Assembly (NCBI RefSeq): GCF_015864575.1
Contig: NZ_JADYWW010000002.1
Span: forward strand, 372,001 to 436,000
DNA length: 64,000 nucleotides
From: Salinibacterium sp. SWN248
GTDB lineage: Bacteria; Actinomycetota; Actinomycetes; Actinomycetales; Microbacteriaceae
Direction: 5' to 3'
The position numbers were made by a program, and so were the translations under genes. The notes beneath the pieces are model-generated. The model did not search any database. It saw nothing but the letters and a program-made list of their open reading frames with translations, and was not told the DNA's origin. Below, piece after piece: positions 19,977 through 39,476 of this stretch (its first letter is position 1; every line of letters begins with the position of its first letter).

Positions 19977-20089
19977 GGCTCGTGGTATCCGCCACAGTTT
20001 TCAGTTCGAAGTGCGCTCGCTAGTGTGGTTGGAAGAAAATGATCGTCTTGAGGTTTTACCGCGCTTCGTAGCGTGGCACTATCGAACGG

Positions 20090-21517
20090 TCATACGCGCG
20101 GAGGCCCTGCGACGACTTGAAGTTCGGTGAAACCGTGAAGCCCCCAGGGACCATTCTCAACGCCGACACCGCTCCACTTATGCCCGCCGAACGGGAGGTG
20201 CGGCCGCACACCACGCCCGTGCTCGTTGATCGAAACCTGACCGGCATCGAGCTCGCCGGCGATGCTATAGGCACGCTCCGGATCACCCGACCAAACGGAT
20301 GCCGTCAATCCGTACTCACTCTTGTTTGCACGCTTGATTGCGTCATCGATATCGGTGTATGACAAAACGGGCAACACAGGCCCGAACTGCTCTTCAGCAA
20401 CGACCCGTGTGCTGTCAGAAACATTGTCGAGAATCGTAGGTTGGAAGAAGTATCCGTCCCTGTCGATTCGTGAGCCCCCAGCAACGGTACGTGCGCCGTT
20501 GCTTGTCGCATCCTCGACCAGCTCCGCCACGCGGCTCAACTGGGGTTCGTTGTTGATCGGGCCGAGCCGTGCTCCGGCCACAGTGCCGTCATCGACCTTC
20601 ACGGAGCGAGCAATCTCACCCAGTGCTTCGGTGAGCTCAGCGCGAATGCTCTCGTGCGCGTAAACCCTCTTGACGGCATAGCAGAGTTGACCGTTGTTGT
20701 AAAAGGCATTCCAGAACAAAGTCTCGGCTACCTCGGAGACGTTTACGTCCGGAAGGATGATCGCCGGGTCGTTGCCGCCCAGTTCCAGAGTGACGCGCTT
20801 GAGGTCATCCGCTGCGTTAAGGGCGACGATCTTGCCAATCTCAGTGGAGCCCGTGAAACTCACCTTGCGCGGAATTGGATCCGAGACCATAGCCGACCCC
20901 AGGGTTCCCGAGACCACGTTGAGCACGCCGTCCGGAACGATCCCGCGGAAAAGCTGCCCCAGCGCAAGAGTTGACATAGGGGTGAATTGCGATGGCTTGA
21001 CCACCACGGTGTTGCCCGCACGAAGCGCCGGGGCGATCTTCCAGACGGCGAGTGCGATAGGGAAATTCCAGGGAGTGATCGCGCTGACGACACCGAGCGG
21101 GCGCCGGAAGATTTCTTCGTAACCGGCTGCATCATCGCGGATCACCTCGCGCGGAATCTCTAACTCTGCGTAGTAATCGAACCATGCAGCCGCGGCCATC
21201 AGTTCGCTCGCCGCCACATCCAATGGCTTCCCCTGCTCGGCAGTGAGAATGGGCGCAATCGAACTGACTCCGTTCCGAACCGCGTTCGCCATCTCTCTGA
21301 GCACTTCGCGGCGGTAGTTGTCGTCCCTCTTCCACGTAGCAAAAGCAGACTGAGCCACTTCGAAGACACCGTGGAGCTGCTCTGCGGTGATCGAGGGTGC
21401 CTCCGCAAAAAAGCGACCCGTCGCTGGGTTAATGACAGAGAAGGAACTGGACGCGTTAAGGTCCTTTCCGCCACTGGTGGCCGCAATTTTCAGCATCTGC
21501 GTGTCGGAAATCGTCAT
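20090..21517 (-). CDS. Aldehyde dehydrogenase (first of two paralogues)
   Basis: A 475-residue NAD(P)-dependent aldehyde dehydrogenase. Seen are the cofactor loop ITPWNFPIALAVWKIAPAL, the catalytic Glu in LELGGND, the catalytic Cys in NNGQLCYAVKR and the C-terminal motif GRGVRPHLPFGGHKWSG. It is closely similar along its length to the second enzyme at 28914-30353, including the shared end GVGVENGPWGLH. Upstream lie two TTGTATAC motifs 63 bp apart. It probably oxidises an aldehyde formed in the P450-started pathway of this island. It marks the left end of the island. Confidence 0.92.
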   Translation of the reverse strand: MTISDTQMLKIAATSGGKDLNASSSFSVINPATGRFFAEAPSITAEQLHGVFEVAQSAFATWKRDDNYRREVLREMANAVRNGVSSIAPILTAEQGKPLDVAASELMAAAAWFDYYAELEIPREVIRDDAAGYEEIFRRPLGVVSAITPWNFPIALAVWKIAPALRAGNTVVVKPSQFTPMSTLALGQLFRGIVPDGVLNVVSGTLGSAMVSDPIPRKVSFTGSTEIGKIVALNAADDLKRVTLELGGNDPAIILPDVNVSEVAETLFWNAFYNNGQLCYAVKRVYAHESIRAELTEALGEIARSVKVDDGTVAGARLGPINNEPQLSRVAELVEDATSNGARTVAGGSRIDRDGYFFQPTILDNVSDSTRVVAEEQFGPVLPVLSYTDIDDAIKRANKSEYGLTASVWSGDPERAYSIAGELDAGQVSINEHGRGVRPHLPFGGHKWSGVGVENGPWGLHGFTELQVVAGPPRV

Positions 21518-21625
21518 TGAAATCTTCCTCTCGTAACCGAGGTCATCGACTCCGACGACCTGGTGTTGCTAAACCCTTTGACGCCGTTGAAAGCGTACTC
21601 GCCAGAATAGTCCGACGTGCGTTGT

Positions 21626-21635
21626 TTGTATACTT
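21626..21635. promoter_or_regulatory. GntR-type operator candidate, site 1
   Basis: TTGTATACTT, centred 113 bp before the aldehyde dehydrogenase start. It is paired with site 2, centre to centre 63 bp. It fits the FadR-type GntR consensus with GT and AC half-sites. Confidence 0.55.
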
Positions 21636-21688
21636 TTTAATCTGAAAATGTGGGGTATTCATCCTCACAGGGATCCTAAAACGCAAGA

Positions 21689-21698
21689 TTGTATACAT
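21689..21698. promoter_or_regulatory. GntR-type operator candidate, site 2
   Basis: TTGTATACAT, 63 bp from site 1. It is flanked by a wider inverted repeat: GCAAGA at 21683-21688 and TCTTGC further right. It lies in the same intergenic region, upstream of the aldehyde dehydrogenase and just past the stop of the enoyl-CoA hydratase gene. Confidence 0.55.
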
Positions 21699-21728
21699 CA
21701 TGCATTCTTGCGACACAGGGCGTGACAG

Positions 21729-22508
21729 CTAGTCGCGCCCCCACACGAACCTAGGTTTCTCCCGTGCGGCGAAAGCTGCGGCCCCGATCGAGGGGTCCTC
21801 GCTCACCTTCAGCTCTTCCCACCAGCGCGCGTAGAGCTGCTCGACATCGCCATCGCCTGACACGAGAGCGCCGATGAGCTGCTTAGTAGAATGAATCGAG
21901 AGCTGAGATCTAGCCACCAGATCGGCACAGAGCGACTCAAGGCTCGATGGGAAATGTTCATCCGCGACGACCGAAGTGATCAATCCCATTTCGTAAGCCT
22001 CGGTAGCCGAGACGCTATTGCCAGTAAAGAGCAAGTACTTGGCCCGGGCCGGGCCGACGATATTCACTAGCCTCGTGATGCCCGACAACGGGTAGATGAT
22101 GCCAATTTTTGCCGGCGTTATGGCCAAACTTGAACTCGTGGCCGCCACACGTAGGTCACAGGCCGCCGCAACTTCCCAACCACCGCCAAAACAAATCCCC
22201 TCGATCGCGGCCACTGTCGGCTTGGGGAAGGCAGCGATCGCCTCCTCTGCACGAGAAACCCACCCTCCTAACCCCACGCTTGGATCAAGGATGGAATCGA
22301 GCGAGCCAATATCTGCGCCCGCCGAGAAGTGCCCCTCCGCACCGCGAATCACCACGACGGTGACGGTTGAGTCATCCGCTAGCCTCGCCAGAGTCGGCTC
22401 GAACGACTGCCACATCGATAGCGTCATCGCGTTTCGTCGGGGCGGGTTGGAAATTGTGATGGTCGCGACGGCACAGTCCTGCGTCACGGTGAGGTTTCCG
22501 TCCGTCAT
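21729..22508 (-). CDS. Enoyl-CoA hydratase/isomerase family protein
   Basis: A 259-residue crotonase-fold protein. Seen are the oxyanion-hole segment GHFSAGADIGSLD and the second loop IEGICFGGGWEVAAACDLR, followed by TPAKIGIIYPLSG. It should hydrate or isomerise an enoyl-CoA. The ATG at 22508 (or a GTG three bases earlier) has no clear ribosome binding site. A TATACA-like -10 element within operator site 3 lies only about 17 bp upstream, so the message may be nearly leaderless. It is divergent from an aldo/keto reductase. Confidence 0.85.
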   Translation of the reverse strand: MTDGNLTVTQDCAVATITISNPPRRNAMTLSMWQSFEPTLARLADDSTVTVVVIRGAEGHFSAGADIGSLDSILDPSVGLGGWVSRAEEAIAAFPKPTVAAIEGICFGGGWEVAAACDLRVAATSSSLAITPAKIGIIYPLSGITRLVNIVGPARAKYLLFTGNSVSATEAYEMGLITSVVADEHFPSSLESLCADLVARSQLSIHSTKQLIGALVSGDGDVEQLYARWWEELKVSEDPSIGAAAFAAREKPRFVWGRD

Positions 22509-22523
22509 CACGCGAGACCGATG

Positions 22524-22533
22524 TTGTATACCA
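22524..22533. promoter_or_regulatory. GntR-type operator candidate, site 3
   Basis: TTGTATACCA, 16 bp upstream of the enoyl-CoA hydratase start. On the minus strand it contains TATACA, a good -10 element for that gene. Site 4 is 63 bp away. Confidence 0.55.
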
Positions 22534-22586
22534 ATGAAACAATTTCTAAGCGATTCACGCCTAACAGTCTAGCGTTCTGGGCGCAA

Positions 22587-22596
22587 AAGTATACAA
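22587..22596. promoter_or_regulatory. GntR-type operator candidate, site 4
   Basis: AAGTATACAA, 22 bp before the aldo/keto reductase start. Its TATACA can serve as the -10 element of that gene, with a short leader carrying GAAAGGAA. Paired with site 3 at 63 bp. Confidence 0.55.
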
Positions 22597-22618
22597 TACG
22601 CAGATCGAAAGGAACACG

Positions 22619-23464
22619 ATGAGCACCGAAGCGATCAACCAGCAACTAGCAATCGGCGGCGACCTCCCCGTGCGTCGAATCGGCTACGGAACCATGCAAC
22701 TCACTGGGCCCGGCGTTTGGGATTGGCCAACCAACCGCGACGACGCCGTCGCGGTGATCAGACTCGCTGTGGAACTCGGCGTCACGCTGATCGACACCGC
22801 AGACGTCTACGGCCCGTACGTCACCGATGCCCTTATCCGAGAGGCACTTCACCCCTACCGCAACGATGTCGTAATCGCCACCAAAGTTGGATTCACCCGA
22901 CAGGGCCCCAACCAGTGGATCCCCCTTGGTCGCCCCGAGTACCTTCGTCAGCAGACTGAGTTAAGCCTGCGCAACCTCGGCCTCGAACGCATCGACCTAT
23001 TACAGTTGCATCGGGTTGACCCGACGGTTCCACTCGAGGATCAAGTCGGTGAGCTGAAGGCGCTGCAGCAAGAAGGCAAGATTCGTCACATTGGACTCTC
23101 CGAGGTAACCGTCGAGCAAATCGAGCAAGCTCGCGCTGTCGCCGAGATCGTCACCGTCCAGAATCGCTACAACCTTGGATTCCGCGACTTCGAGAATGTA
23201 CTTGATTACGCCGCAGCCAATGGGATTGGTTTCATCCCGTGGTTTCCGCTCGATACCGGCAACCTCACGACGGCAGACGCCGTGGTTCGCGTTGCATCGG
23301 AGACGGGAAGCACTCCCGCGCAGGTCGCCATCGCTTGGCTGCTCAAGCGCTCAGACGTCATGCTGCCAATTCCAGGTACATCGTCTCAACAGCATCTTCG
23401 CGAAAATCTCGGAGCGGAAGAAATCACTCTGACTGACGAGCAATTCGCTTCACTCCACGGTTAA
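22619..23464 (+). CDS. Aldo/keto reductase
   Basis: A 281-residue NADPH-dependent TIM-barrel reductase. The catalytic set is visible: Asp and Tyr in LIDTADVYGP, Lys in IATKVGF and His in LLQLHRVDP. The C-terminal cofactor-binding segment reads LPIPGTSSQQHLREN. GAAAGGAA precedes the start. Divergent from the enoyl-CoA hydratase and sharing the paired operator region, it probably belongs to the same regulon. It may reduce a carbonyl intermediate; the substrate is unknown. Confidence 0.92.
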   Translation: MSTEAINQQLAIGGDLPVRRIGYGTMQLTGPGVWDWPTNRDDAVAVIRLAVELGVTLIDTADVYGPYVTDALIREALHPYRNDVVIATKVGFTRQGPNQWIPLGRPEYLRQQTELSLRNLGLERIDLLQLHRVDPTVPLEDQVGELKALQQEGKIRHIGLSEVTVEQIEQARAVAEIVTVQNRYNLGFRDFENVLDYAAANGIGFIPWFPLDTGNLTTADAVVRVASETGSTPAQVAIAWLLKRSDVMLPIPGTSSQQHLRENLGAEEITLTDEQFASLHG

Positions 23465-23470
23465 ACTCGG

Positions 23471-23507
23471 CTTCCGGCCCAGCCGCATAGCGGTACTGGG
23501 CCGGAAG
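23471..23507. terminator. Bidirectional terminator
   Basis: CTTCCGGCCCAG and CTGGGCCGGAAG are perfect 12-bp arms, and the loop itself holds CCGC-ATA-GCGG. It lies between the convergent aldo/keto reductase and CoA-transferase genes. Confidence 0.75.
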
Positions 23508-23529
23508 AGAGTCACTCTGGCTTGGTCCC

Positions 23530-25881
23530 CTAGCGGTACGCGATCGGCAAGACGTGCTGCACAGGGCCGCCCGTCCGCACAGCGCCAACCTCAAGCAACG
23601 CAGTGATCTCGTCGTCGTCGAACCCGGCTTCTGTGAGCACGGCTACCGTGCTTTGCCCGACCCCATCCGGGCTCAAAGGCCCGCGACGCTGAGTCCGACT
23701 GAATCCGGCATAACGCGCTGTCATCATGAAGCTGCTCTTATCGTCGGCTGTGCGCACATGCACTGCCTCTGCGTCAAGCAAACGTGGATCACGGAGCACT
23801 GAACTCAGCGGCCGCGCTTGCACTGCACGAAGCCCTGCCGCCGAAACAGCAGCCACCGCCTCCTCGCTCGTCAACTCGCGCAACGACTTTGCCAGCGACT
23901 CACGAACAGCGTCCATGTCACCGGAAGAAGTGTCTGAGTTTATGAGTTCCGCGAACACCAGCATCGAGGTTGCTGCTGCCGGCCCTCCCTTGACGAGCGT
24001 GGAATCAACGTAGATCCACCCATCCGAAGTCTCATAGTATGACTGCACTGGTGAGAGGCCTCGAAGGTCGCTGCGCCCAACGGCCAGCTCCGGACGGCCA
24101 TCGTACTTGACCATGTCTCCCATCTGCAGGAAGACCGAAACCGCCGCCAGCGAGTCCCAGGTGCGCTGCCCCCGACCAGTTTGCTGCCTGTCGTAGAGCG
24201 CTAGAACGCACGTGAGCGCAGAGAGCGCGGCTGCAGTCACGTCGTTGATAGCAATCGTATTTGCAACAGGGTCATCCTCCCCGCCCCACGATGTCATCAT
24301 TCCGCTCATCGCCTGAACGACCATGTCGACCCCCGGAGCCTGCGAGAGCGGCCCACCTTCACCATAGGCAGAGAGCGACATCGTGACGATATTTTGGTTG
24401 ATTTCGGCGAGTTTCTCGTAGTCGATATTAAGACTGGACATCACCCCAGGGCGCATGCCGTCGATCACGACATCACTGACCTTGACGAGCCGATGGAACG
24501 CGCCCTGCCCTGCCTCAGATTTTAGATCAATCGCAAGACTGCGCATCCCTCTGTTGTAGGCGTAACCCGAACCGCGGAATGGGTCGCCTGTGAGTGGCTC
24601 AACCTTGATCACATCAGCCCCCAGTTCCTTCAAGAGGAATCCTGCGTAGGGCGAGGCCACAAAGGTTCCCATATTGAGTACTCGGAATCCCGCGAGCGGG
24701 CCCTCAACGAAACGGGGCGCCGGCTCCTCAGAAACGGGACGAGCGCTCCAGGGCGTGGCGCCGTTGTGTTCGCCATGCGAGGGAGCATGGCGGTCGAATC
24801 GTGCTGGTGTGCGTGTGAGATTAATCGCTGAGCCAGGCATTACGACACGACCACGGGCCGGATCGTCGATCTCCACCCGCATACCGATTCCGCGAATCTG
24901 TGGGTGATCGAGCCATTCTTCCCTGCTCATCGCGGGGCCGCAAGGAATGCCAATGCTGGAAAGCAGCGCGAGCGATTCCTCCCGCGTGCGCGAAGCGAAA
25001 GCGTCGACGAGTTTTGGCAAACACCATTCGAAATTCTCCGTGAGCGCCATTCGAGCTGATACCCCGTCGATTCTTGGGTCAGCGAGAATGGCGTCGAGGC
25101 CGAGGGCTTTCAGCAGACCCGTTTCAAACTTCGGGCCGAGAGCACCACAGGAAATCCAGGTACCGTCGGAACAGCGGAACTGACGGTAGGTAGGATGACG
25201 CCCCGCTGGACCAACTTTCATCGAGGGGTCAGGCAGGGTGGGATCGACGCTCATCGCAGTGACTGTTGCCTCGATCAATCCTTGAACACCAGTGACCGTC
25301 ACCACTTGCCCGAGCCCGGAAACCGTGCGTTCGACCAACGCAGCAACTAAACATGCCGCTGCCCACACGCCATGGATATAGAGGAGATACGGCGACATGG
25401 TCTCGATCGGACCGCCCGCGACTGACGACTGCCGCATCGCTTGTCCGCCATATGCTGCCAAGAGACCATTTGACTCACCCTCCCACGGTGCGTAACCGTC
25501 AAGGTAGGGCGGCATTCGAAGCTCGATGAGTCTGATGTTTGCCGCAGCCGCAGACTCAACCTCCGGGCCCCAGGCCGCTAAGCTGTCTGCGGCGCCCAGA
25601 ATGCACACATCCGCGTTGCCGATGGCAGCCACTAACCAGTCTCGGTCCGCTTCCACCGTCGGATCAATGACGACGGAGCGCTTGTTACGATTCCATACAG
25701 CGGCACCGGGCAGCGAATCGTAGACGTCTGGTTCAGGCGAGGCGACTTTGATCACGTCTGCGCCGAAGTCACCAAGGAACATACTCGCGACGGGCGCCGC
25801 GATTCCGGTGCTGAGATCGAGTACTCGGATGTCTGCCAGTGCGCTCGTATCGTCGCCCCCGGCCTGTTTACGGACGCTCAT
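23530..25881 (-). CDS. Fused double-domain CaiB/BaiF-type CoA transferase
   Basis: A 783-residue protein made of two class III CoA-transferase domains, about twice the usual length. Domain 1 covers about residues 15-365 (RVLDLSTGIAAPVASMFLGD), domain 2 about 395-770 (RVLNMGTFVASPYAGFLLKE). Domain 2 keeps the expected catalytic Asp at 519 in PGVDMVVQAMSG. The matching place in domain 1 reads GESNGLLAAYGG, with Asn138 instead, so one half may be inactive. It should move CoA onto a carboxylic acid. Its start overlaps the stop of the MaoC gene by 4 bp, so the two are coupled. This is the only obvious acid-activating enzyme in the island. Confidence 0.88.
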   Translation of the reverse strand: MSVRKQAGGDDTSALADIRVLDLSTGIAAPVASMFLGDFGADVIKVASPEPDVYDSLPGAAVWNRNKRSVVIDPTVEADRDWLVAAIGNADVCILGAADSLAAWGPEVESAAAANIRLIELRMPPYLDGYAPWEGESNGLLAAYGGQAMRQSSVAGGPIETMSPYLLYIHGVWAAACLVAALVERTVSGLGQVVTVTGVQGLIEATVTAMSVDPTLPDPSMKVGPAGRHPTYRQFRCSDGTWISCGALGPKFETGLLKALGLDAILADPRIDGVSARMALTENFEWCLPKLVDAFASRTREESLALLSSIGIPCGPAMSREEWLDHPQIRGIGMRVEIDDPARGRVVMPGSAINLTRTPARFDRHAPSHGEHNGATPWSARPVSEEPAPRFVEGPLAGFRVLNMGTFVASPYAGFLLKELGADVIKVEPLTGDPFRGSGYAYNRGMRSLAIDLKSEAGQGAFHRLVKVSDVVIDGMRPGVMSSLNIDYEKLAEINQNIVTMSLSAYGEGGPLSQAPGVDMVVQAMSGMMTSWGGEDDPVANTIAINDVTAAALSALTCVLALYDRQQTGRGQRTWDSLAAVSVFLQMGDMVKYDGRPELAVGRSDLRGLSPVQSYYETSDGWIYVDSTLVKGGPAAATSMLVFAELINSDTSSGDMDAVRESLAKSLRELTSEEAVAAVSAAGLRAVQARPLSSVLRDPRLLDAEAVHVRTADDKSSFMMTARYAGFSRTQRRGPLSPDGVGQSTVAVLTEAGFDDDEITALLEVGAVRTGGPVQHVLPIAYR

Positions 25882-26717
25882 CGTAGCGTCATCGATCCGC
25901 GGTCGAGCACAACTTCGCCCGCACTATTGAGCGTCTGGAACCGGGCGCCCGAATCCTCCGACCACATCCGCACAGTGAGCGTCTCCCCGAGGGAAACGAC
26001 CTTTGTGAATCGTGCGTGCATACTGCCGAATCGCGACGGATCGGAACCCGCGATGCCGTGCAGGAGTGCTCGGGCGGTGAAGCCATAGGTGCACATGCCG
26101 TGCAAAATCGGCGCCGGAAATCCTGCACGTGCGGCAAATGTTGGGTCGCTGTGCAACGGGTTGCGGTCGCCAGTCAAACGGTAGAGCAGTGCTTGTTCTG
26201 GGCGAGTCTCGTAGGTGATGATGACGTCGGGTTCTCGATCGGGCTGCTCCCAACCATCGCCGGGTCCACGCTCGCCTCCGAATCCGCCTTCACCGCGCAC
26301 GAACATTCCCGACTGTAGACGCGCAACGAGCTCTCCACTAGCCGTGTCGACCACGTCGGTAGCGGTTGATACTAGGGCGCCTGAACCCTTGTCAAAAATT
26401 CCAGTGATCGAAGCGGTGGATGTGACGTCTCCGCTGGCATCCAAGTCGCCGAACAACTCGAACCCCATGTCCGCGTGCAGCATCTTGGTCATATCGATGC
26501 TGAAGCCGTCGGGCAGTGGTCCGCCAGCCGCGACACAAATGAATGACGGCAGCACGCGCTGTTGAACAGCAGAATTCTCTGTAGTGAACTTCAGCTCGGC
26601 TGACGCATCGCCTTGGCCAGCACCCACAGCGACCGCATAGAGCAATGCATCTTTTGATTCCCACGTGCGCCGCAGCGGGGCGCCGGTTTTACCTACGTAT
26701 GACGTATCGATGGCCAC
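25878..26717 (-). CDS. MaoC-type 2-enoyl-CoA hydratase (hydratase 2)
   Basis: A 279-residue double hot-dog protein. The hydratase-2 motif is clear: YRLTGDRNPLHSDPTFAARA with the catalytic Asp and His, then FPAPILHGMCTYGF. It should add water to a trans-2-enoyl-CoA to give the 3R-hydroxy form, as in bile acid and methyl-branched acyl-CoA oxidation. The GTG at 26717 has AAAGGAG just upstream. It forms an operon with the fused CoA transferase. Paired TTGTATAC-type sites lie upstream. Confidence 0.9.
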   Translation of the reverse strand: MAIDTSYVGKTGAPLRRTWESKDALLYAVAVGAGQGDASAELKFTTENSAVQQRVLPSFICVAAGGPLPDGFSIDMTKMLHADMGFELFGDLDASGDVTSTASITGIFDKGSGALVSTATDVVDTASGELVARLQSGMFVRGEGGFGGERGPGDGWEQPDREPDVIITYETRPEQALLYRLTGDRNPLHSDPTFAARAGFPAPILHGMCTYGFTARALLHGIAGSDPSRFGSMHARFTKVVSLGETLTVRMWSEDSGARFQTLNSAGEVVLDRGSMTLR

Positions 26718-26766
26718 GATCGAACTCCTTTGTTTGATGGATCCAGATTAGCCGGATTTAGACTTT

Positions 26767-26776
26767 TTGTATACAT
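26767..26776. promoter_or_regulatory. GntR-type operator candidate, site 5
   Basis: TTGTATACAT, centred 55 bp before the MaoC start, with a weaker partner 61 bp away. Confidence 0.55.
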
Positions 26777-26827
26777 TCAGCGCATTCAATTCAGAAATTG
26801 AGGCTCAAACCGCCTGAACCGTGAGAA

Positions 26828-26837
26828 ATGTATGCAT
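26828..26837. promoter_or_regulatory. GntR-type operator candidate, site 6 (degenerate)
   Basis: ATGTATGCAT, with GTATGC in place of GTATAC, 61 bp from site 5. It is kept because its spacing matches the other pairs. Confidence 0.35.
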
Positions 26838-26903
26838 AGCCGGAACTAGCGACGCCGCTACAGGGAGAGGTGAACTCGATTTAGGAATGAACTGCTCTGA
26901 CGC

Positions 26904-27368: not shown

Positions 27369-27445
27369 ATGGTTACTCCTCAGTGGTATTGATGTGCGCC
27401 GCGCAAAAAACTGATTCCTGCGCGGCGCACTCAAACAAACGGGTA

Positions 27446-28804: not shown

Positions 28805-28913
28805 TATTTCTCCTCATTGAGTTTCATGTAGCGGCTACGGTCGCCCGACCAGTTGGCCTTGATAGACCGAGGTGACGCCTGCGCGCCACCCCGGAAAATG
28901 GTGTTCTAGTCCT

Positions 28914-30353: not shown

Positions 30354-30372
30354 GATTGTTTCCCCCCTTCGA

Positions 30373-31464: not shown

Positions 31465-31510
31465 TTCTTTGACAACTTCCTTGTTGAATACTGTTGAAAT
31501 GGGGGTGGGG

Positions 31511-32746: not shown

Positions 32747-32748
32747 TT

Positions 32749-32973
32749 TCAGATTACCTCTAGCTTGAGCGCTTTTGCTGGGCACGAGCGCACGGCCGTT
32801 TCTACGTCTTCTAGATCAGCATCCGTGACTGTTTCGCTGAGCAGCAGCAGTGACCCATCGTCACTGACTTCAAAGTGCTCGGGTGCCAAGGATTCACAGA
32901 TGCCAATGCCAGTGCAGCGGCCGCGGTCAACAACGATCCTCATGCGTGCCGCTTCGGTGTGAACGTCACTCAT
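32749..32973 (-). CDS. [3Fe-4S]-type ferredoxin
   Basis: A 74-residue ferredoxin. Three Cys residues are in place: Cys20 and Cys26 in RCTGIGIC and Cys64 in RSCPAKAL. The position where a [4Fe-4S] protein has a fourth Cys is Ile23, so a [3Fe-4S] cluster is expected, as in many actinobacterial P450 partners. It starts 2 bp after the P450 stop. It delivers electrons from the reductase to the P450. An internal ATG at 32943 would also be possible. Confidence 0.93.
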   Translation of the reverse strand: MSDVHTEAARMRIVVDRGRCTGIGICESLAPEHFEVSDDGSLLLLSETVTDADLEDVETAVRSCPAKALKLEVI

Positions 32974-32975
32974 GA

Positions 32976-34250
32976 TCAGCTCACCTTCACTGGAAGGTTC
33001 TTGACGCCATTGATGAAATTGCTGTACAGGTTCACTGGCTCACCAACCTCCATGTTCGGCAGCTTGGTCGTAATCTCACTGAAGAGCGCGTTCAGTTGAG
33101 CCTTCGCGACACCATTGCCGAGACAGAAGTGCACTCCACCGCCACCGAAACCAACGTGTGGGCTGCGTCCACGGGTGAGGTCGAACTTGTGAGGATCCTC
33201 GAATTCGCGTTCGTCACGGTTTCCCGATCCGTAGAAGATGACGACCTTGTCGCCCTTGAGAATCTTCTGTCCACGCAGCTCGATGTCTTCGCGTGCGGTG
33301 CGCGCGAACTCAATGACGGGCGATGCATGGCGAACGAACTCTTCGATCGACCCAGCAATACGGCCTTCGTAGTCTTCCATGAGCCAGTCGCGCTGGTCCG
33401 GGTTACGGTCAAGTGACACAACAGTCCGTGACGTCGTCTGCTTCGTCGTATCGTTGCCGGCGACGCTCAACAACAGCATCATTGCGCCGATGTCGTCATC
33501 GCTCAACGGTTTGCCGTCGAAATCGGCATTTGCCAGTGCCGTCGCAATGTCTGCAGCAGGGTACTTGCGGCGGTGATTGACAATGTCGACGCCAATCTCC
33601 TGCAGAATTGCGATTTGCTGCAGCACGAAATCTAACGGATTCACTCCGGCCGGAAGAATGTCAGGGTCGCTCGCACCAACCTGATTGTCGCCGGCTTGCG
33701 CGAAGGCCCCTACGAGGTCTTCTGGAACACCCACCATGTCCGCAACAGTCAGCATCGGCAGCTTTGCCGACACTTCGTGCACGAAGTCGAATTCACCAGC
33801 GCCGACGACCCGGTCGACAATCTGTGCGGCTCGTTCTTTAATCTTGACGCTCAACACACCGACTGCCTTGGGAGTGAAGGCCCGGCTCATGATCTGGCGG
33901 TATCGGGTATGAAATGGAGGGTCCATGCTGAGGAATGTCGGCGGAATCAGAAGCCCAGGATAACGAGGCGCCAAACTGATGTGTCCTGGCTCAGCGGAGC
34001 TAAAGATCTCGTTGTTCTCGCTAACGAAGCGGATGTCTTCGGCCAGAGTTACAGCCCAGAACCCAGCTTCCCCATGCACCTCCTGAGGCATTGTCGGAAC
34101 CTCAAGCGATCGGTGCCAGCTGACGGGATTATCCTTGCGAAGTCGCGCGAATGTTTCGTCTCGCTGTTCAAAACTCTTTCTCCAGAAATCTTCGCTGGAG
34201 ATGTCTTCGTCGGTCGTCAACTCGTGCTCTGTGGAATAAACTGTCGTCAT
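32976..34250 (-). CDS. Cytochrome P450 (CYP124/125/268-like group)
   Basis: A 424-residue soluble bacterial P450. The oxygen-binding I-helix reads SVAGNDTTKQTT, the K-helix ExxR is EEFVRHASP-type, and the haem loop is FGGGGVHFCLGNG with Cys376. The heme loop with GVHFCLG is typical of the actinobacterial group that hydroxylates end methyls of sterol side chains and methyl-branched or isoprenoid lipids; the exact family is inference. The ATG at 34250 has AGGAG upstream; a longer in-frame start is Arg/Ser-rich and wrong. It is followed by its ferredoxin and reductase. It probably starts the pathway of this island. Confidence 0.92.
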   Translation of the reverse strand: MTTVYSTEHELTTDEDISSEDFWRKSFEQRDETFARLRKDNPVSWHRSLEVPTMPQEVHGEAGFWAVTLAEDIRFVSENNEIFSSAEPGHISLAPRYPGLLIPPTFLSMDPPFHTRYRQIMSRAFTPKAVGVLSVKIKERAAQIVDRVVGAGEFDFVHEVSAKLPMLTVADMVGVPEDLVGAFAQAGDNQVGASDPDILPAGVNPLDFVLQQIAILQEIGVDIVNHRRKYPAADIATALANADFDGKPLSDDDIGAMMLLLSVAGNDTTKQTTSRTVVSLDRNPDQRDWLMEDYEGRIAGSIEEFVRHASPVIEFARTAREDIELRGQKILKGDKVVIFYGSGNRDEREFEDPHKFDLTRGRSPHVGFGGGGVHFCLGNGVAKAQLNALFSEITTKLPNMEVGEPVNLYSNFINGVKNLPVKVS

Positions 34251-34287
34251 TGACTTTGCTCCTATTTCTTTGTGCTCGTTGAACGAG

Positions 34288-35205
34288 CTACTTCTTTGTC
34301 TGGGACGAGAACGGGCTCGGAGCGAGGCCCTCAGCGAGGGGGCGGAACGTGCTCTCGATCTCGGTGGCAAGATCCTGAACTGCCCACGGCTCGTCGCCTG
34401 AGATTTCCGCAATCTGCTCGGGCACGTTGTACAGTCCGACCTTGTAGCCGGCGGCAGCGACAACTCGGCCGCTCATCCAATCTGAGCGATCCGAAGCGAG
34501 GTACACGGCAACAGGTGCAATGTTGTCCGGCGACATAGCCCTCTCGTCAGCCGGCGCCTCACCCATCTTTTTCCCATCCGGGATCGTAGCGACGAGACGA
34601 GTCGCGGCGCCTGGTGCGATTGCGTTGGCCGTTACGCCGTAGCGAGCCAATCCCTGCGCGAGCGACTGAGTAAGTCCGACGACGCCCATCTTCGCTGCAG
34701 CGTAGTTGGGCTGTCCCGGCGAACCGTGAAGGCCCGATACCGAGGTGAAGTTGATGATTCGGTAGTTTCCCTCGGGGTTGCGCTGCTCACGCCAGTAGGC
34801 GGATGCAGGGCGCACGGTGCTGTACACGCCTTTCATGTGTACACGGATGACCGCGTCCCAGTCTTTTTCTTCGAGGTTGAAAATCATACGGTCACGAAGA
34901 ATGCCGGCGACGTTGACCACGATGTCGAGCTTTCCAAAGTTCTCAATAGCTGCGGCGACCAGGCGCTCGCCGGTCGCGACATCAGCGATATCTCCGCCAT
35001 CTGCGACAACGCGGAGCCCATTTACGTTGAGTTCAGCGGCGATGTCTGTTGCAGGCCCAGCGTCAAGCCCGGTGCCATCTTCGGTGGAACCGAGGTCATT
35101 CACTACGACCGATGCGCCTTCTTTGACGAAGGCGCGGGTAATGGAAGCGCCGATGCCCCGTCCGCCGCCCGTAATGATGGCTACTTTACCTTCGAGAATT
35201 CCCAC
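34288..35205 (-). CDS. Short-chain dehydrogenase/reductase
   Basis: A 305-residue SDR resembling the hydroxyacyl-CoA dehydrogenase part of peroxisomal multifunctional enzymes. The cofactor motif TGGGRGIGASI, NVAGILRD, the catalytic Ser in NFTSVSGLHG and YAAAKMG with Tyr and Lys are seen. A GTG at 35205 is chosen because AAGGAG lies 5 bases upstream; the GTG at 35211 overlaps that site. It is first in the minus-strand transcript, before the P450, with a perfect TTGTATACAA site upstream. It probably oxidises a hydroxy intermediate, often the partner of a MaoC hydratase. Confidence 0.92.
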   Translation of the reverse strand: MGILEGKVAIITGGGRGIGASITRAFVKEGASVVVNDLGSTEDGTGLDAGPATDIAAELNVNGLRVVADGGDIADVATGERLVAAAIENFGKLDIVVNVAGILRDRMIFNLEEKDWDAVIRVHMKGVYSTVRPASAYWREQRNPEGNYRIINFTSVSGLHGSPGQPNYAAAKMGVVGLTQSLAQGLARYGVTANAIAPGAATRLVATIPDGKKMGEAPADERAMSPDNIAPVAVYLASDRSDWMSGRVVAAAGYKVGLYNVPEQIAEISGDEPWAVQDLATEIESTFRPLAEGLAPSPFSSQTKK

Positions 35206-35268
35206 AATCACTCCTTTGTGTTCTGTTTTATCTTTGACTTAGCTGAACAATAGCCGCCATTTGGGCAC

Positions 35269-35278
35269 TTGTATACAA
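35269..35278. promoter_or_regulatory. GntR-type operator candidate, site 7 (perfect)
   Basis: TTGTATACAA, a perfect 10-bp palindrome, 64 bp before the SDR start. It is the best copy of the motif and sits before the longest operon of the island. Confidence 0.65.
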
Positions 35279-35474
35279 CTGTTGCAAATTGGCGACAATT
35301 ATCAGGTTGTCGAATTTATCTTCCCACGCGCGCAGACATTAGGACTGACCATCGTGCCATCGTGAAACTGAACAATTTTCTTCATTTTTCGGCCTGAATT
35401 GGAGTTTCTTAACCCAATAGTCGCAACGCGAGAGGGGTCTGATGATCCTCACTCGTGCGCCCCTTTTGGGCTTT

Positions 35475-35504
35475 TTGTGTACAGAACGTGAAATTCGTAT
35501 ACAG
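35475..35504. promoter_or_regulatory. GntR-type operator candidates, sites 8 and 9
   Basis: TTGTGTACAG at 35475-35484 and TCGTATACAG at 35495-35504. Their centres are 20 bp apart, about two helix turns, so two dimers could bind one face. The second holds TATACA, a -10 candidate for the DUF35 gene. Confidence 0.5.
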
Positions 35505-35555
35505 TGGGCGTCAGCAGCGCGGATCACGCGCCGACATCGTCGTCGAAGGGCAACC

Positions 35556-35972
35556 ATGACAGCCGGGCCGGTACCCCTACCCACTCCCCAGACAGCTCCG
35601 TTCTGGGACGGAACGCGAAACAGTGAATTGCGGGTGCAACGCTGCCGCGCATGCAGCCGCCACTTTTTCTATCCCAGACCGATTTGTCGGTACTGCCAGT
35701 CGTCAGACTTGGAGTGGGTGACGACTTCTGGACGAGCAACGCTCGCGTCCTACATCATCAACTACCGCCCGTTGCCGTTCTTCGAGACGAAGGAACCCCA
35801 AGTCATCGCACTCGTTGATCTGGAAGAGGGGCCGCGAATGGTCTGCACCCTCATCGGCGTGGAACCGCGCCCCGAAGCCATCTCTATTGGGATGGCTCTA
35901 TATGTGAGCTTCGAAGAGCGAGGCGACCAGATGCTGCCGGTGTTTGGCCCAGTAGAAGTGAGAAACAAATGA
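35556..35972 (+). CDS. DUF35 OB-fold zinc-ribbon protein (acyl-CoA-associated)
   Basis: A 138-residue protein. The N-terminal zinc ribbon has Cys30, Cys33, Cys44 and Cys47 in CRACSRHFFYPRPICRYC. The OB-fold follows with TLASYIINYRPLPFF and VDLEEGPRMVCTLI. DUF35 proteins pair with thiolase-fold enzymes, for example ChsH2 with Ltp2 in steroid side-chain cleavage. The ATG at 35556 has GAAGGG upstream; longer starts are not supported. It overlaps the thiolase-fold gene by 4 bp, so the two are coupled and likely form one complex. Confidence 0.9.
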   Translation: MTAGPVPLPTPQTAPFWDGTRNSELRVQRCRACSRHFFYPRPICRYCQSSDLEWVTTSGRATLASYIINYRPLPFFETKEPQVIALVDLEEGPRMVCTLIGVEPRPEAISIGMALYVSFEERGDQMLPVFGPVEVRNK

Positions 35973-37126
35973 CCTCGATGCACGGTGGCGATGTAGCAAT
36001 CGTTGGCGCTTCAGAATCCACCCGTCTCGGGACCATCCCGGATATGTCTGTTCTTGAGCTGCACGTAGAGTCCGCCCTTAACGCGCTCGCTGACGCCGGC
36101 CTGACCCCGGCGGATGTTGATGGCATCGCTAACGATGTAATGCCGGCGTATGAAGTTGCCGACATGCTCGGAATTCGTCCGCGGTGGCTCGACGGCACTT
36201 CGGTCGGAGGGTGCAGTTTTATGCTGCACGTCCGCCACGCCGCTTCCGCCATTGCTTCTGGCGCAGCCAACGTCGTGCTCATTACGCACGGTGAATCAGG
36301 ACGATCCCGTGTCGGCACTAAGCCCTACGTAGGCGACCCGTCTTCCTTGGCCGGACAGTTCGAACACCCCTATGGCGCCCTCGCCCCGTACTCGAGCTTC
36401 ACCCTTCCCGTCATGGGCTTCCTTGAGTCTCGAGGAATGTCCAGGCGAGATCTCGCTGAAGTTGCTTCAGCACAGCGCTCGTGGGCGGAGCGCAACCCTC
36501 GAGCGCTTCGCCAGACTCCCATCACCGTTGACGAGGTGCTCGACGCACCCCCCGTCGCGTACCCCTTTACGCGCGATATGTGCTGCGTTGTAACGGATGG
36601 CGGCGGCGCGCTCGTCATGATGAGCGCGGAACGGGCCAAAGACCTTCCTTCCGCTAACCGGGCGATTTATCTGCTCGGGTCTGGAGAGTCGTCAGAAAGC
36701 GCCATCATCTCGCAGATGGATGATCTCGACAGCTTCGGCGCGTTCCGCCGATCAAGCGATGAAGCATTTCGGACAGCAGGCATCGAACGCGCCGACGTCG
36801 ATCACGCGATGTTCTACGACGCTTTCGCGCACCTTCCTCTTTACATGCTCGAAGACACAGGTTTCGTGGGCCGCGGAGAGTCTGGCGCGTTTATTCGCGA
36901 AGGTCACACGCGTGCCGGTGGTTCGTTACCCATGAATACCAATGGCGGTGGTCTCTCTTACACTCACACCGGCAAATACGGCATGTTCGCCATCCAAGAG
37001 GCCGTACGCCAGCTTCGCGGCGAAGCCGCTGCGCAAGTTCCTGATGTCGAGATCAGTTTCGTTCAGGGAGTGGGGATGATGTTCGGCGCCGCTGGCAGCT
37101 TGGTGCTCAGCAACAAAGAGAACTAG
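35969..37126 (+). CDS. Thiolase-fold SCPx/Ltp2-like enzyme (aldolase or thiolase)
   Basis: A 385-residue thiolase superfamily protein of the SCPx/lipid-transfer group. It opens VAIVGASESTRLG and has Cys82 in SVGGCSFML, the middle segment MFYDAFAHLPLYMLED, and the late Gly-rich part MNTNGGGLSYTHTGKYGMFA with Tyr residues in the places known to matter in Ltp2-type retro-aldolases. Coupled to a DUF35 gene, it may split a branched 3-hydroxyacyl-CoA (aldolase) or a 3-oxoacyl-CoA (thiolase). The aldolase option is inference by analogy with Ltp2-ChsH2. It is followed 10 bp later by the GntR gene. Confidence 0.88.
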   Translation: MTSMHGGDVAIVGASESTRLGTIPDMSVLELHVESALNALADAGLTPADVDGIANDVMPAYEVADMLGIRPRWLDGTSVGGCSFMLHVRHAASAIASGAANVVLITHGESGRSRVGTKPYVGDPSSLAGQFEHPYGALAPYSSFTLPVMGFLESRGMSRRDLAEVASAQRSWAERNPRALRQTPITVDEVLDAPPVAYPFTRDMCCVVTDGGGALVMMSAERAKDLPSANRAIYLLGSGESSESAIISQMDDLDSFGAFRRSSDEAFRTAGIERADVDHAMFYDAFAHLPLYMLEDTGFVGRGESGAFIREGHTRAGGSLPMNTNGGGLSYTHTGKYGMFAIQEAVRQLRGEAAAQVPDVEISFVQGVGMMFGAAGSLVLSNKEN

Positions 37127-37136
37127 CGCGCTCGCG

Positions 37137-37910
37137 ATGCCTTCGCTAAAGCGAGAAAAGCGCGAAACTCCGGAATCGGGAAAAAACGGCGAGCAACCTC
37201 GCTTGCCTCCACGCACAAGCAAAAAGAGTGCTCGGGGGAAACCGAGCGCTAGTATAACTCCTATGCGTGCTAGTGAAACTGCCTATCGTCGACTGCGGGA
37301 TGACATCATTCAATGGCGGCTGCAGCCCGGCACGCCTCTCGGTGAAGTGGAAACCGCCGCACGCATCGGCGTCTCACGGACTCCGGTTCGTGAGGCTCTT
37401 TCTCGCCTTACGGCAGAGGGGCTAGTTGACACCGTCAATGGAAGAACCGCGGCCGTGTCAAGCCTCTCGCGCGCCAACGTCATCGAGCTCTTCGAACTAC
37501 GCGAAGCGCTCGAGGCACAATCTGCCAGGCTGGCGGCACGCAAACGAGATCCAATCGTTTTCGAAAAGTTGCGAGCAGACTTCCTTGCCGGACCAAGTGA
37601 GACCGAACCAGAAGGTCTCGATCAGCCACGTCCTTATTTTCTTGCTGACGCACTGGATCTCGCCATCGATCAGGCCGCGGATAGCATTTACCTGCGGAAT
37701 GCTCAGACCACTCTGCGGGGCCACCTCGCTCGAGTCCGACGCAATGCTCATTCCGTTCCCGGTCGACTTCAACGCGCTACCGAGGAGCACCTCCTCATCG
37801 TCGAAGCGATCCTCGAGCAAAACGAAGCTCTCGCGGTGCACGCTACGGCTGTACATCTCCACAATAGTCTTGCCAACGTATTGTCAACGCTTCCGCTGAC
37901 TGACGACTAG
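37137..37910 (+). CDS. GntR family regulator (FCD type)
   Basis: A 257-residue GntR regulator. The winged helix reads YRRLRDDIIQWRLQPGTPLG followed by ARIGVSRTPVREALSRLTAE; the C-terminal FCD effector domain includes ELFELREALEAQSARLAA. The ATG at 37137 gives a 42-residue Lys/Arg-rich tail not usual in the family. An ATG at 37264 gives a 215-residue protein of normal length but has no good ribosome binding site. Located inside the island, it is the best candidate for binding the TTGTATACAA sites, which fit the FadR-type consensus. Effector may be an acyl-CoA or acid intermediate. Confidence 0.87.
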   Translation: MPSLKREKRETPESGKNGEQPRLPPRTSKKSARGKPSASITPMRASETAYRRLRDDIIQWRLQPGTPLGEVETAARIGVSRTPVREALSRLTAEGLVDTVNGRTAAVSSLSRANVIELFELREALEAQSARLAARKRDPIVFEKLRADFLAGPSETEPEGLDQPRPYFLADALDLAIDQAADSIYLRNAQTTLRGHLARVRRNAHSVPGRLQRATEEHLLIVEAILEQNEALAVHATAVHLHNSLANVLSTLPLTDD

Positions 37911-37970
37911 GCCCCAGCGCCGCGCACTACACACAGGCTCCGCTTATCGGCGACGAAGCTGCGTGCTGCT

Positions 37971-39221
37971 CTAACCCAGTTCCGGCCGGTTGTACGGAGC
38001 GGTCGGCCCGGTTTGGTTTGCGCCAGGGAAGGTAGGGCCCAAAGATCGACCCGCCCGGAGCACGAATATCAACGTCGTCACCACGAGCATTGCAGCGACT
38101 ACATAGGCGGCCCCGAAGCCCAAGCTCTCAGCGAGCAAGCCGCTAACGAGCGGCCCAAGGATTCCGGCAAGGTCGCTTCCAACCCAGTACGCCGCGAGAC
38201 CAAATCCAGAACGGCCGACCTTGGAATCGCCCAAAAGAGAGATAGCGGCTGTCGCGATGAGGCCACCCGCAAGTCCCAAAGTCATGAACGTGATGACCGC
38301 AATAGTGAAGTACTCCGAAAAATTCAAGCCGACGGCTGCTAAGAAAGCGAGACCGAGTCCGACGACGAGGGGTTTAATGCGCCCGATTCGGTCGGAGATG
38401 GTACCACCAGTGGATGACCCGACGATCTGCAGAACTGCAGAAATCGAGAGCAACAGTCCAATGACGCCTACCGAGTACCCGATGCTGGAGAGGTTGAGCG
38501 GCAGAGTGGTAGTGCGCATTCCATAGAAAACCCACCCCACTAGAACCTGACATGCAACAGCGGCGACGAAGAGCCGATCGGAAAAGATCGCGGCAAAAGC
38601 AGCTCTACGACCACCGATTACTCCCCCTTCGGGAGCGACCTCGGCGGGGACCGCTTTTACATCACGTGCAGAGCGGAGCAAAACCACAGTGACCGCGGAT
38701 GCTAGGGCCAGCGCACCGCCATAGCCGAGAAGAGGCAACCGCGGATCGAAAATGGCAAGCAGGCCGCCAAGGGCTGGGCCTGCCACTGTCCCCAACGCCG
38801 TTGAACTGGCGAAGACGCTCATGGCCCGGCCTCTCACGGCGACGGGAGCCAGCACGAGCAGCAGCGCCGAGGATGCGATTGTGAACGCCGCGCTACCGAC
38901 ACCGCTGATGGTTCTGAACGTGATAAAGCCGAGATAATCAGGAGACAAGCCCGCGATAATGCTGCACACCGATTGGACCAAAAGGCCGACCCACAGAACC
39001 GTTCGGAGTCGAAGCCGGTCGAGGTATTTGGCGAACGCCAAGTTCGTGATGAGACGGGCGGCAGCGAAACCGCTAATGGCCAGGCTCATAAGAGTGGTGC
39101 CAGCATTGAACTCGCGGCCGAGCGCCGGGAGCGACGGCCCGATGACTCCGAACCCCAGCGTGACGATGAACCCTATCAGGGATACGATCCACACTTCTTT
39201 GGGAAGCCGCGCCCTAACCAT
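37971..39221 (-). CDS. MFS transporter (drug/metabolite type)
   Basis: A 416-residue protein with 12 membrane helices. It has GFIVTLGFGVIGPSLPALGREF in the first helices and GGTISDRIGRIKP in the loop that forms the usual MFS motif A repeat. Paired TATAC sites lie upstream at 39263-39334, so it probably belongs to the island regulon. It may take up the substrate or export a toxic intermediate. It is convergent with the GntR gene. Confidence 0.87.
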   Translation of the reverse strand: MVRARLPKEVWIVSLIGFIVTLGFGVIGPSLPALGREFNAGTTLMSLAISGFAAARLITNLAFAKYLDRLRLRTVLWVGLLVQSVCSIIAGLSPDYLGFITFRTISGVGSAAFTIASSALLLVLAPVAVRGRAMSVFASSTALGTVAGPALGGLLAIFDPRLPLLGYGGALALASAVTVVLLRSARDVKAVPAEVAPEGGVIGGRRAAFAAIFSDRLFVAAVACQVLVGWVFYGMRTTTLPLNLSSIGYSVGVIGLLLSISAVLQIVGSSTGGTISDRIGRIKPLVVGLGLAFLAAVGLNFSEYFTIAVITFMTLGLAGGLIATAAISLLGDSKVGRSGFGLAAYWVGSDLAGILGPLVSGLLAESLGFGAAYVVAAMLVVTTLIFVLRAGRSLGPTFPGANQTGPTAPYNRPELG

Positions 39222-39262
39222 TCGTTCTCTCTTCTGTCGAATTCTTCACCGCGTCCATTTCC

Positions 39263-39272
39263 CTGCATACAA
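39263..39272. promoter_or_regulatory. GntR-type operator candidate, site 10
   Basis: CTGCATACAA, which reads TTGTATGCAG on the minus strand, centred about 47 bp before the MFS start. Its partner lies 62 bp away. Confidence 0.4.
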
Positions 39273-39324
39273 TTTAGGGGAAATCGCGCGATGTCACCTC
39301 CAGTAGAACATGGTTTGGTGGTTT

Positions 39325-39334
39325 AGGTATACAA
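39325..39334. promoter_or_regulatory. GntR-type operator candidate, site 11
   Basis: AGGTATACAA, 62 bp from site 10. It is the right-hand end of the motif series in the island. Nothing else is seen in the remaining stretch up to the next gene at 39477. Confidence 0.45.
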
Positions 39335-39476
39335 CAAACCGATTTGGCGTGAATTGGACCAAGATGCGGTCGCCGCAGGAGGCCACCCACACGCGTATGT
39401 GGGAGTGCGAAAATTGCGACATCAGAGAATCGAGCTGGCGTCAATCGCGGAACCGTGCGGAAAAAGCTCCGGCAGG

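Follow-up and report, generated by a model that had tools for sequence, protein, structure and literature searches.

Several described systems bear on the subject of this report, a 17-gene island within a 64,000-nucleotide stretch of the marine-type actinobacterium Salinibacterium sp. SWN248 (Microbacteriaceae; assembly GCF_015864575.1, contig NZ_JADYWW010000002.1, positions 372,001 to 436,000 of the forward strand; hereafter the window). In the beta-myrcene route of Pseudomonas sp. M1 (myrDABC, MyrH), as outlined in PMC7794910, myrcen-8-ol, the product of terminal allylic methyl oxidation, is converted via myrcenoic acid to the coenzyme A (CoA) ester with the participation of an alcohol dehydrogenase (ADH), an aldehyde dehydrogenase (ALDH), CoA activation and a hydratase, and a C3 unit is proposed to be lost as propionyl-CoA; in the same outline, terminal oxidation of 2-methyl branches frees propionyl-CoA for the methylcitrate cycle. 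The class I cytochromes P450terp (CYP108A1) and P450lin (CYP111A1) are described as acting on a monoterpenoid methyl group. Their products are passed on to an ADH and an ALDH. The steroid aldolases Ltp2-ChsH2 and Sal-Shy pair a DUF35 domain with a thiolase-fold partner that carries Gly in place of the nucleophilic Cys and the Tyr of a YDxF/Y motif, and the bbs operon for benzylsuccinate beta-oxidation encodes a type III CoA transferase, a hydratase, a short-chain dehydrogenase/reductase (SDR) and a DUF35 plus thiolase-fold pair. Finally, the HtaA/ChtA hemophores bind heme through CR domains with characterized ligand positions (PMC12494546).

The island resembles the Myr route in its predicted sequence of methyl oxidation, ADH, ALDH, CoA activation and hydration, but has a P450 instead of the membrane enzyme MyrH, a CoA transferase instead of the MyrC synthetase and a GntR regulator instead of MyrR, and additionally encodes MaoC, SDR, DUF35-Ltp and HtaA-domain proteins. 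Its P450 belongs to a different family from P450terp and P450lin and is linked to a CoA half. Unlike the steroid aldolases, its Ltp has YDAF rather than YDHF or YDCY and His333 at the position of Ltp2 Tyr344, with DUF35 as a separate protein; the similarity to BbsA, BbsB and BbsD is weak, and the island starts from a P450 and lacks the radical enzyme and acyl-CoA dehydrogenase of the bbs system. In contrast to the hemophores, its HtaA protein is short and single-domain, shows no signal peptide and lies within the P450 gene run. No described equivalent of the whole gene set was recognized in the open-access literature, and the island is a new variant among terminal-methyl oxidation pathways; the initial annotation likewise knew of no cluster with exactly this set, but equivalent clusters are present on sequenced plasmids. 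On balance, we favor the reading of an acquired, probably co-regulated island for the degradation of a branched or terpenoid compound, in which P450-initiated conversion to an acid and a CoA ester would be followed by hydration by MaoC and retro-aldol cleavage by DUF35-Ltp with release of propionyl-CoA. We infer the substrate class, the cleavage chemistry and the role of the HtaA protein from the comparisons below.

Gene identities were taken from Pfam and NCBIfam profiles (the scanned HtaA, ADH and ferredoxin reductase sequences began one codon too far upstream and that of the SDR was two codons short, the starts being corrected afterwards). All genes listed in the initial annotation are present (P450, ferredoxin, reductase, ADH, ALDH, CoA transferase, two hydratases, SDR, DUF35/thiolase pair, two transporters and a regulator); the HtaA-domain protein (26907-27368) and an aldo/keto reductase (22619-23461, plus strand; PF00248, E 4.7e-71; NF007695 above cut-off) were not in that list. 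From strand and spacing, about six transcription units can be predicted, four of them on the minus strand (SDR-P450-ferredoxin-ferredoxin reductase-ADH-ALDH2-MFS1-HtaA; MaoC-CoA transferase; ALDH1; MFS2), the remainder consisting of an enoyl-CoA hydratase (ECH) gene (minus) divergent from the aldo/keto reductase gene (plus) and of DUF35-Ltp-GntR (plus).

The P450 (32979-34250, minus; PF00067), with its start taken at MTTVYS although the listed open reading frame opens 213 bases further upstream, has CYP268A2 (6bld) as its nearest solved relative, with 44.1% identity over 401 aligned residues (E 1.8e-101). Membership in a CYP family requires more than 40% identity to a member, which among the solved P450s compared places the enzyme with CYP268; CYP124A1, named in the Protein Data Bank (PDB) as a methyl-branched lipid omega-hydroxylase, is 38% identical. 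The relationship to CYP268, CYP125 and CYP124 agrees with the initial assignment to P450s acting on lipids, sterols and isoprenoids. Electrons would be supplied by the ferredoxin (32752-32943, minus; PF13459/PF13370), which probably carries a [3Fe-4S] cluster because it has only three Cys (positions 10, 16 and 54), and by the ferredoxin reductase (31514-32746, minus; PF07992 and PF14759), so that the CYP268-like enzyme could hydroxylate a terminal, probably allylic, methyl group of an isoprenoid or methyl-branched substrate. The Zn-dependent ADH (30376-31464, minus; PF08240, PF00107; TIGR03989 below cut-off) and ALDH2 (28917-30353, minus; PF00171, E 3.3e-146) would then convert the alcohol to the acid. 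P450terp is also among the PDB matches, and a cyclic substrate of the p-menthane or terpineol type, with the ring opened by DUF35-Ltp or by the crotonase-type ECH (21732-22508, minus; PF00378, E 1.1e-42), would likewise need no acyl-CoA dehydrogenase to yield an unsaturated acid if an allylic ring methyl were oxidized; this is unlikely, however, given the bit scores (343, 310 and 277 for CYP268, CYP125 and CYP124 against 183 for P450terp) and the lack of a match to the window ECH in the Embleya and Sphingomonas stretches described below.

Entry into CoA metabolism can be attributed to a fused, 783-residue type III (CaiB/BaiF) CoA transferase (23533-25881, minus), which matches PF02515 in two stretches. 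Alignment with three homologues shows an Asp in the C-terminal half (Asp519, GVDMVVQ), presumably the catalytic-type residue, in all four sequences, and an Asp at the roughly corresponding place of the N-terminal half in one of the four (Mycolicibacterium madagascariense only); a search of 72,556 plasmid records at E<=1e-100 recovered four with such a fused protein. In Pfam, no family of acyl-CoA ligases or of acyl-CoA dehydrogenases was matched by any of the 17 proteins, which upholds the earlier view that a ligase is absent and that activation occurs by CoA transfer, and supports the logic of methyl to acid to CoA ester. Nor is an acyl-CoA dehydrogenase among the listed genes of two sphingomonad stretches, for which the PLSDB tables are incomplete; because this enzyme is missing from both sets, the acid is probably already unsaturated, as it would be after oxidation of an allylic isoprenoid methyl, and a dehydrogenase would be dispensable if the substrate held an alpha,beta double bond. 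Carboxylation of the Atu/Liu type was considered and rejected: the genome encodes three PF01039 proteins, none of them in the island. The MaoC protein (25881-26717, minus; PF22622, PF01575; DxNxxH motif), of the hydratase-2 type of peroxisomal MFE-2 (1s9c, E 6e-51), could hydrate the unsaturated ester to a 3-hydroxy-2-methylacyl-CoA, from which DUF35-Ltp would, most likely by retro-aldol cleavage, release propionyl-CoA and an aldehyde. This aldehyde could be oxidized for the next round by ALDH2 or by its paralogue ALDH1 (20093-21517, minus; PF00171, E 2.5e-141; 67% identical), and propionyl-CoA would enter the methylcitrate cycle. Two major facilitator superfamily transporters, MFS1 (27449-28804, minus; PF07690), nearest to monocarboxylate/oxalate-formate types (NF049980 and TIGR00890 below cut-off), and MFS2 (37974-39221, minus; PF07690), complete the set.

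The cleavage step rests on DUF35 (35556-35969, plus; PF01796, PF12172; ChsH2 C-terminal type with a CxxC..CxxC Zn ribbon) and Ltp (35969-37123, plus; PF22691), the latter compared in a 31-row alignment of the window protein, 26 relatives and four PDB chains. The nucleophile column contains Cys in the true thiolase 6esq alone and Gly in all other rows, including TcLtp2 (6ok1), 4u4e, 9myr and the window protein (Gly81); similarly, the Tyr of YDxF (Y283DAF in the window) is present in every row save 6esq, which has the thiolase HDxF His. The third residue of this motif is Ala in the window, Ala, Ser or Asn in the relatives, His in TcLtp2 and Cys in 9myr, apparently CtSal judging from its YDCY, and His333 occupies the column of the thiolase His, which is Tyr344 in TcLtp2. 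Read against the residue roles given for TcLtp2 and CtSal in PMC12329534, the protein shares the Gly of the Ltp2-type retro-aldolases but has neither their YDHF His nor the second catalytic Tyr, has Ala for the Cys acid of Sal, and lacks the nucleophilic Cys of canonical and SCP2 thiolases, a Cys lying one residue on. Because the nucleophilic Cys is replaced by Gly and the aldolase-type Tyr is kept, retro-aldol cleavage appears more likely than thiolysis, in an active site unlike that of either published aldolase, and the 'thiolase' cleavage of the initial annotation becomes doubtful.

A thiolytic version, in which MaoC and SDR represent a split MFE-2 and Ltp cleaves a 3-keto-2-methylacyl-CoA with CoA, has its precedent in the peroxisomal beta-oxidation of 2-methyl-branched substrates with SCPx. 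The SDR (34291-35205, minus; PF00106; start likely GTG at 35205) has a (3R)-hydroxyacyl-CoA dehydrogenase of the MFE-2 type as its best PDB match (2et6, E 4.9e-76), is included in the sets of Salinibacterium, Embleya and the sphingomonads, where it fits the 3-keto route better than a retro-aldol one, and stands beside MaoC-DUF35-Ltp on the Rhodococcus plasmid pGZ01; furthermore, Cys82, adjacent to Gly81 (GGC), is kept in 10 of the 27 aligned Ltp sequences, mostly the nearest ones, and might be catalytic. Against thiolysis stand the Gly and Tyr throughout the Ltp rows and, for CtSal, the conclusion of its authors that Gly at this position excludes it (PMC12329534). Since the SDR is conserved and Cys82 retained, we consider the thiolytic version a plausible alternative, albeit less probable than the retro-aldol one. 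The likeness of DUF35-Ltp and MaoC to the ChsH/Ltp2 system, together with the relationship of the P450 to CYP125 and CYP124, could also suggest degradation of a sterol or bile-acid side chain; this is very improbable, since Ltp is far closer to 4u4e/PRK06158 than to Ltp2 (382 against 140 bits) and no gene for steroid ring degradation was found in a search confined to the 17 genes of the island.

The evidence for co-regulation comes primarily from operator-like sites. Sequences matching TTGTATACAA at 8 or more of 10 positions occur 10 times in the 19.5-kb island (shuffle mean 2.3) and twice in the other 44.5 kb; none of the 10 begins within a called gene, intergenic sequence totaling 1,722 bases, with the sites at 35475 and 35495 counting as intergenic only on a DUF35 start at 35556, as opposed to 35442. 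Three pairs of such sites lie 60-64 bp apart (shuffle mean 0.003), or four if 7 of 10 matches are allowed (0.19), and in neither case did any of 300 shuffles reach as many, which substantiates the shared intergenic motif of the initial annotation. The spacing is 61-63 bp in four of the five intergenic groups, namely TTGTATACTT and TTGTATACAT upstream of ALDH1 (21626-21698, 63 bp), the divergent ECH/aldo-keto reductase gap (22524-22596, 63 bp), TTGTATACAT (9/10) with ATGTATGCAT (7/10) upstream of MaoC-CoA transferase (26767-26837, 61 bp), and CTGCATACAA with AGGTATACAA (39263-39334, 62 bp); the site scan of the divergent SDR/DUF35 region shows a single perfect palindrome TTGTATACAA (35269-35278) with weaker sites beyond. 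Across the 3.05-Mb genome, TGTATACA occurs in five places, three of them within the island, and because a backward-reading control pattern is about as frequent (six places), the clustering and not the total is informative. Exact GTATAC pairs number three in the genome (control 0), two in the island and one upstream of a TRAP transporter locus.

The candidate regulator is the GntR/FCD protein (37137-37907, plus; PF00392, PF07729), and the island is probably switched as a unit by this one regulator. Among the proteins of the same genome, comparison with the GntR of the methylcitrate operon, other GntR proteins being left out, gave 50.5% identity over 210 amino acids; this operon, GntR-prpD-prpB-prpC (locus L157, 5343-9727; G000 C2:327343-331727; Pfam GntR/FCD, MmgE_PrpD, PEP_mutase and Citrate_synt), has an upstream site pair 62 bp apart. 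In Pseudomonas aeruginosa, prp is described as repressed by a GntR/FCD protein (PMC9765439), and the title of a work cited in PMC13086498 has PmiR sensing 2-methylisocitrate. Given that the prp GntR is a paralogue, that the paired sites are alike and that a GntR/FCD protein controls prp in P. aeruginosa, we infer that the island regulator and the pathway output are tied to propionyl-CoA. Two island-like operator pairs also accompany a locus encoding a TRAP transporter, an Ltp with YDCY, two ECH proteins and an MBL protein (L158, 7217-15835; G000 C1:557217-565835); this locus may be part of the island's regulon, and its 20 kb contain no convincing match to the GntR proteins compared (best E 0.21).

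On sequence comparison, the island (approximately 19,955-39,480) is an acquisition in one insertion, because the genes that flank it, glpK-glpD-SorC to the left and LpdA-PNP to the right, adjoin each other in two congeners; the insertion thus separates a SorC-type regulator gene from an LpdA-type gene. LpdA was searched for in 10 genomes of the genus and the region retrieved in eight (all except G000 and G082); in G145 and G1160 LpdA adjoins SorC-glpD-glpK without the island, and nucleotide alignment to these empty sites ends at 19938/19953 and restarts at 39476/39486. In five of the eight, neither an island gene nor a SorC/glp gene is present in the retrieved stretch beside LpdA, and in G1155 the contig stops there; these six congeners consequently do not define the insertion site. 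The G+C content in 2-kb windows differs weakly (56-60% inside, 58-64% outside), the window yielded no tRNA, and no integrase is among the scanned proteins, a scan that did not take in open reading frames further out.

Searches of 398 genomes of the family, 396 of the phylum and the plasmid records reveal the distribution of the two halves. The island genes are present in Salinibacterium sp. SWN167 with protein identities of 99-100%. In the family sample, the P450 has a match in 49 of 398 genomes at E<=1e-60, but at 45% identity or above only in G000, G082 (100%), G055 (66%), G087 (48%) and G057 (45%); Ltp has one in 29 of 398 at E<=1e-40, reaching at least 59% in G000, G082, G225, G057, G126, G020 (two copies) and G328. 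At order level, the P450 query at E<=1e-100 recovered the genome itself only (1 of 396), a scan of the genome contigs with one sequence gave four loci only, and Ltp at E<=1e-120 was found in 3 of 396 of the phylum sample, own genome included. With regard to the same gene order in Microbacteriaceae, for which the initial annotation had suggested a search, the full set was found in G082 and in no other family region retrieved.

In G055, which belongs to a different genus, there is a P450 half, GntR-ALDH2-ADH-P450-ferredoxin reductase-ferredoxin with a divergent HtaA gene; no match to the island CoA transferase, MaoC, DUF35 or Ltp was found in 36 kb, and the genome is absent from the Ltp matches at E<=1e-40. 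Its GntR is 57% identical to that of the island, and in 18 kb four of seven sites (8-10 of 10) sit upstream of the P450 gene or in the gap that separates the divergent ferredoxin and HtaA genes. Conversely, G225, G057 and G126 have DUF35-Ltp with distant SDR (35-36%) and MaoC (48-51%) proteins, and the 34-36 kb compared contain nothing that matches the island P450, the 45% P450 of G057 being on a separate contig from Ltp; judging by eye from sequence signatures, G225 and G126 presumably also encode an acyl-CoA dehydrogenase and a 713-720-residue acyl-CoA synthetase. Because relatives carry each half alone, the island on this evidence is a junction of two modules. Chance co-insertion of two separate functions could be read from the same distribution; it is nonetheless distinctly unlikely, as operator-like sites occur at both halves, and Embleya and sphingomonads likewise have the two together.

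In the plasmid record of Embleya sp. NBC_00888, LTP-DUF35 is divergent from MaoC-SDR-CoA transferase-P450-ferredoxin-ferredoxin reductase-ADH-ALDH2-HtaA, an 11-gene core with 36-69% identity. By annotation, Sphingomonas MM-1 plasmid pISP0 and Sphingobium MI1205 plasmid pMI1 have ferredoxin-ADH-P450-MaoC-MaoC-CoA transferase-ALDH-SDR-DUF35-thiolase, the MM-1 proteins being 48% (ferredoxin), 50% (ADH), 29% (P450), 47% (CoA transferase), 58% (ALDH2), 65% (SDR), 60% (DUF35) and 71% (LTP) identical; ALDH2 identities are 74% to G055 and 67% to Embleya. As the MM-1 P450 is distant and has other best PDB matches than the island enzyme, the oxygenase seems to be exchangeable and most of the downstream set fixed. 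A ligase version of the CoA half, an SDR-MaoC-DUF35-Ltp-AMP-binding unit beside ALDH and Zn-dehydrogenase genes, was observed on pGZ01 (L115, 9856-14716). Separately, the window's genome encodes a second P450 (G000 C2:80290-81462, L048), 39% identical to that of the island, with ferredoxin reductase and ALDH homologues nearby, and several other retrieved family genomes have a similar arrangement.

Besides the retained Cys82 and the SDR, several observations weigh against the favored reconstruction. The Ltp has Ala in place of either published acid residue (His in TcLtp2, Cys in CtSal), and relatives hold the P450 and CoA halves separately. In the Embleya stretch, whose other genes are unannotated, ECH, aldo/keto reductase, ALDH1, both MFS and GntR proteins are unmatched; in that of MM-1, the window MaoC has no tblastn match and the gene run lists no ferredoxin reductase. 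Moreover, the prp operon and the TRAP-Ltp-ECH locus have pairs of the same kind, so that the motif is not specific to the island. The single pathway of the initial annotation, against which separation of the P450 and CoA genes in close relatives was to count, accordingly meets a mixed result: one insertion, shared sites and a core common to Embleya and, though there with a distant P450, to sphingomonads speak for it, whereas the separate halves in G055 and in G225, G057 and G126 do not.

In the 154-residue HtaA protein (minus strand; PF04213, E 5.9e-23), which belongs to the CR family, both the axial Tyr and the helper His typical of CR domains are conserved in position, the ligand roles being those described in PMC12494546; in the aligned proteins the Tyr is present in 11 of 11 and the His in 10 of 11. 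It differs from secreted or surface-anchored hemophores in that the domain begins at about residue 10 and no hydrophobic N-terminus is apparent by eye, no signal-peptide program having been used. Ordinary heme uptake was set aside as its function, since none of the 17 genes encodes a heme ABC transporter and a signal peptide was not seen; a second, longer HtaA protein with a signal-like N-terminus is encoded elsewhere in the genome (C1:1021068). In actinobacteria, short, signal-less HtaA proteins are repeatedly encoded close to a P450 or Rieske oxygenase gene (window 26907-27368; L107 9965-10477; L109 7953-8441; L111 7974-8510; L105 9962-10459; L103 26644-27102; L039 13653-14072). The HtaA-P450 distance is 5.6 kb in the window, within one gene run, and below 2 kb in G055. 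The HtaA query matched 10 plasmid records, of which eight were inspected (LT1 and AT5 were left out), and in seven a P450 gene lies within 5 kb (Embleya, TC1, R138, GD02, P. ureafaciens, D5-1 and Citricoccus), the stretch from the eighth, ZXY-2, reaching the record end before any P450 was visible. Counted as distinct contexts, five of five are near a P450, or five of six with M. madagascariense, met via its CoA transferase; the chance product for the five is about 3e-6 under an assumption of uniform placement that catabolic clustering violates.

As a control, PF04213 was found at E<=1e-8 in 19 of 396 phylum-sample genomes (45 matches), that of the window alone lying in a frame of less than 284 amino acids. 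Nine of the other 44 places, hand-chosen from seven genomes and not random, encode proteins of at least 266 amino acids, the majority of which have a signal-like N-terminus on visual inspection. With four P450 queries, tblastn found no P450 in the 6.7-20-kb stretches around them. In MM-1 there is no HtaA match. A strict P450 linkage was not upheld, the nearest P450 in M. madagascariense being about 25 kb away. On that plasmid, CoA transferase, thiolase, DUF35, NTF2 and HtaA-domain genes stand together (L118, 19796-25010), and the helper His is a Tyr, as described for ChtA (PMC12494546); in GD02, the HtaA gene comes immediately after those of a Rieske oxygenase and its reductase, with the P450 2.8 kb beyond. 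Judged by title and abstract start, no open-access paper that contains HtaA, cytochrome P450 and ferredoxin together deals with an HtaA-P450 partnership. We regard the small HtaA protein as a probable heme carrier or heme buffer for the P450. To our knowledge, the loading of heme into bacterial P450s is poorly understood. It is tempting to generalize that cytosolic HtaA proteins are dedicated P450 partners in Actinobacteria, as heme donors, buffers or sensors, and that the island combines such a partner with an acyl-CoA-dehydrogenase-free, aldolytic clipping of isoprene ends to propionyl-CoA, a new Tyr/His Ltp site and a propionate-derived regulator; as a whole, this proposition is tentative and rather doubtful.

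The present analysis offers a compact and testable gene set for the aerobic breakdown of branched or terpenoid compounds, distinct from the routes of the Atu/Liu and Myr types; actinobacteria and plasmids of sphingomonads share a similar core. Its Ltp would represent a further branch of the DUF35-partnered thiolase-fold enzymes, with an active site that matches neither published steroid aldolase, and cytosolic HtaA proteins emerge as possible heme handlers for P450s.

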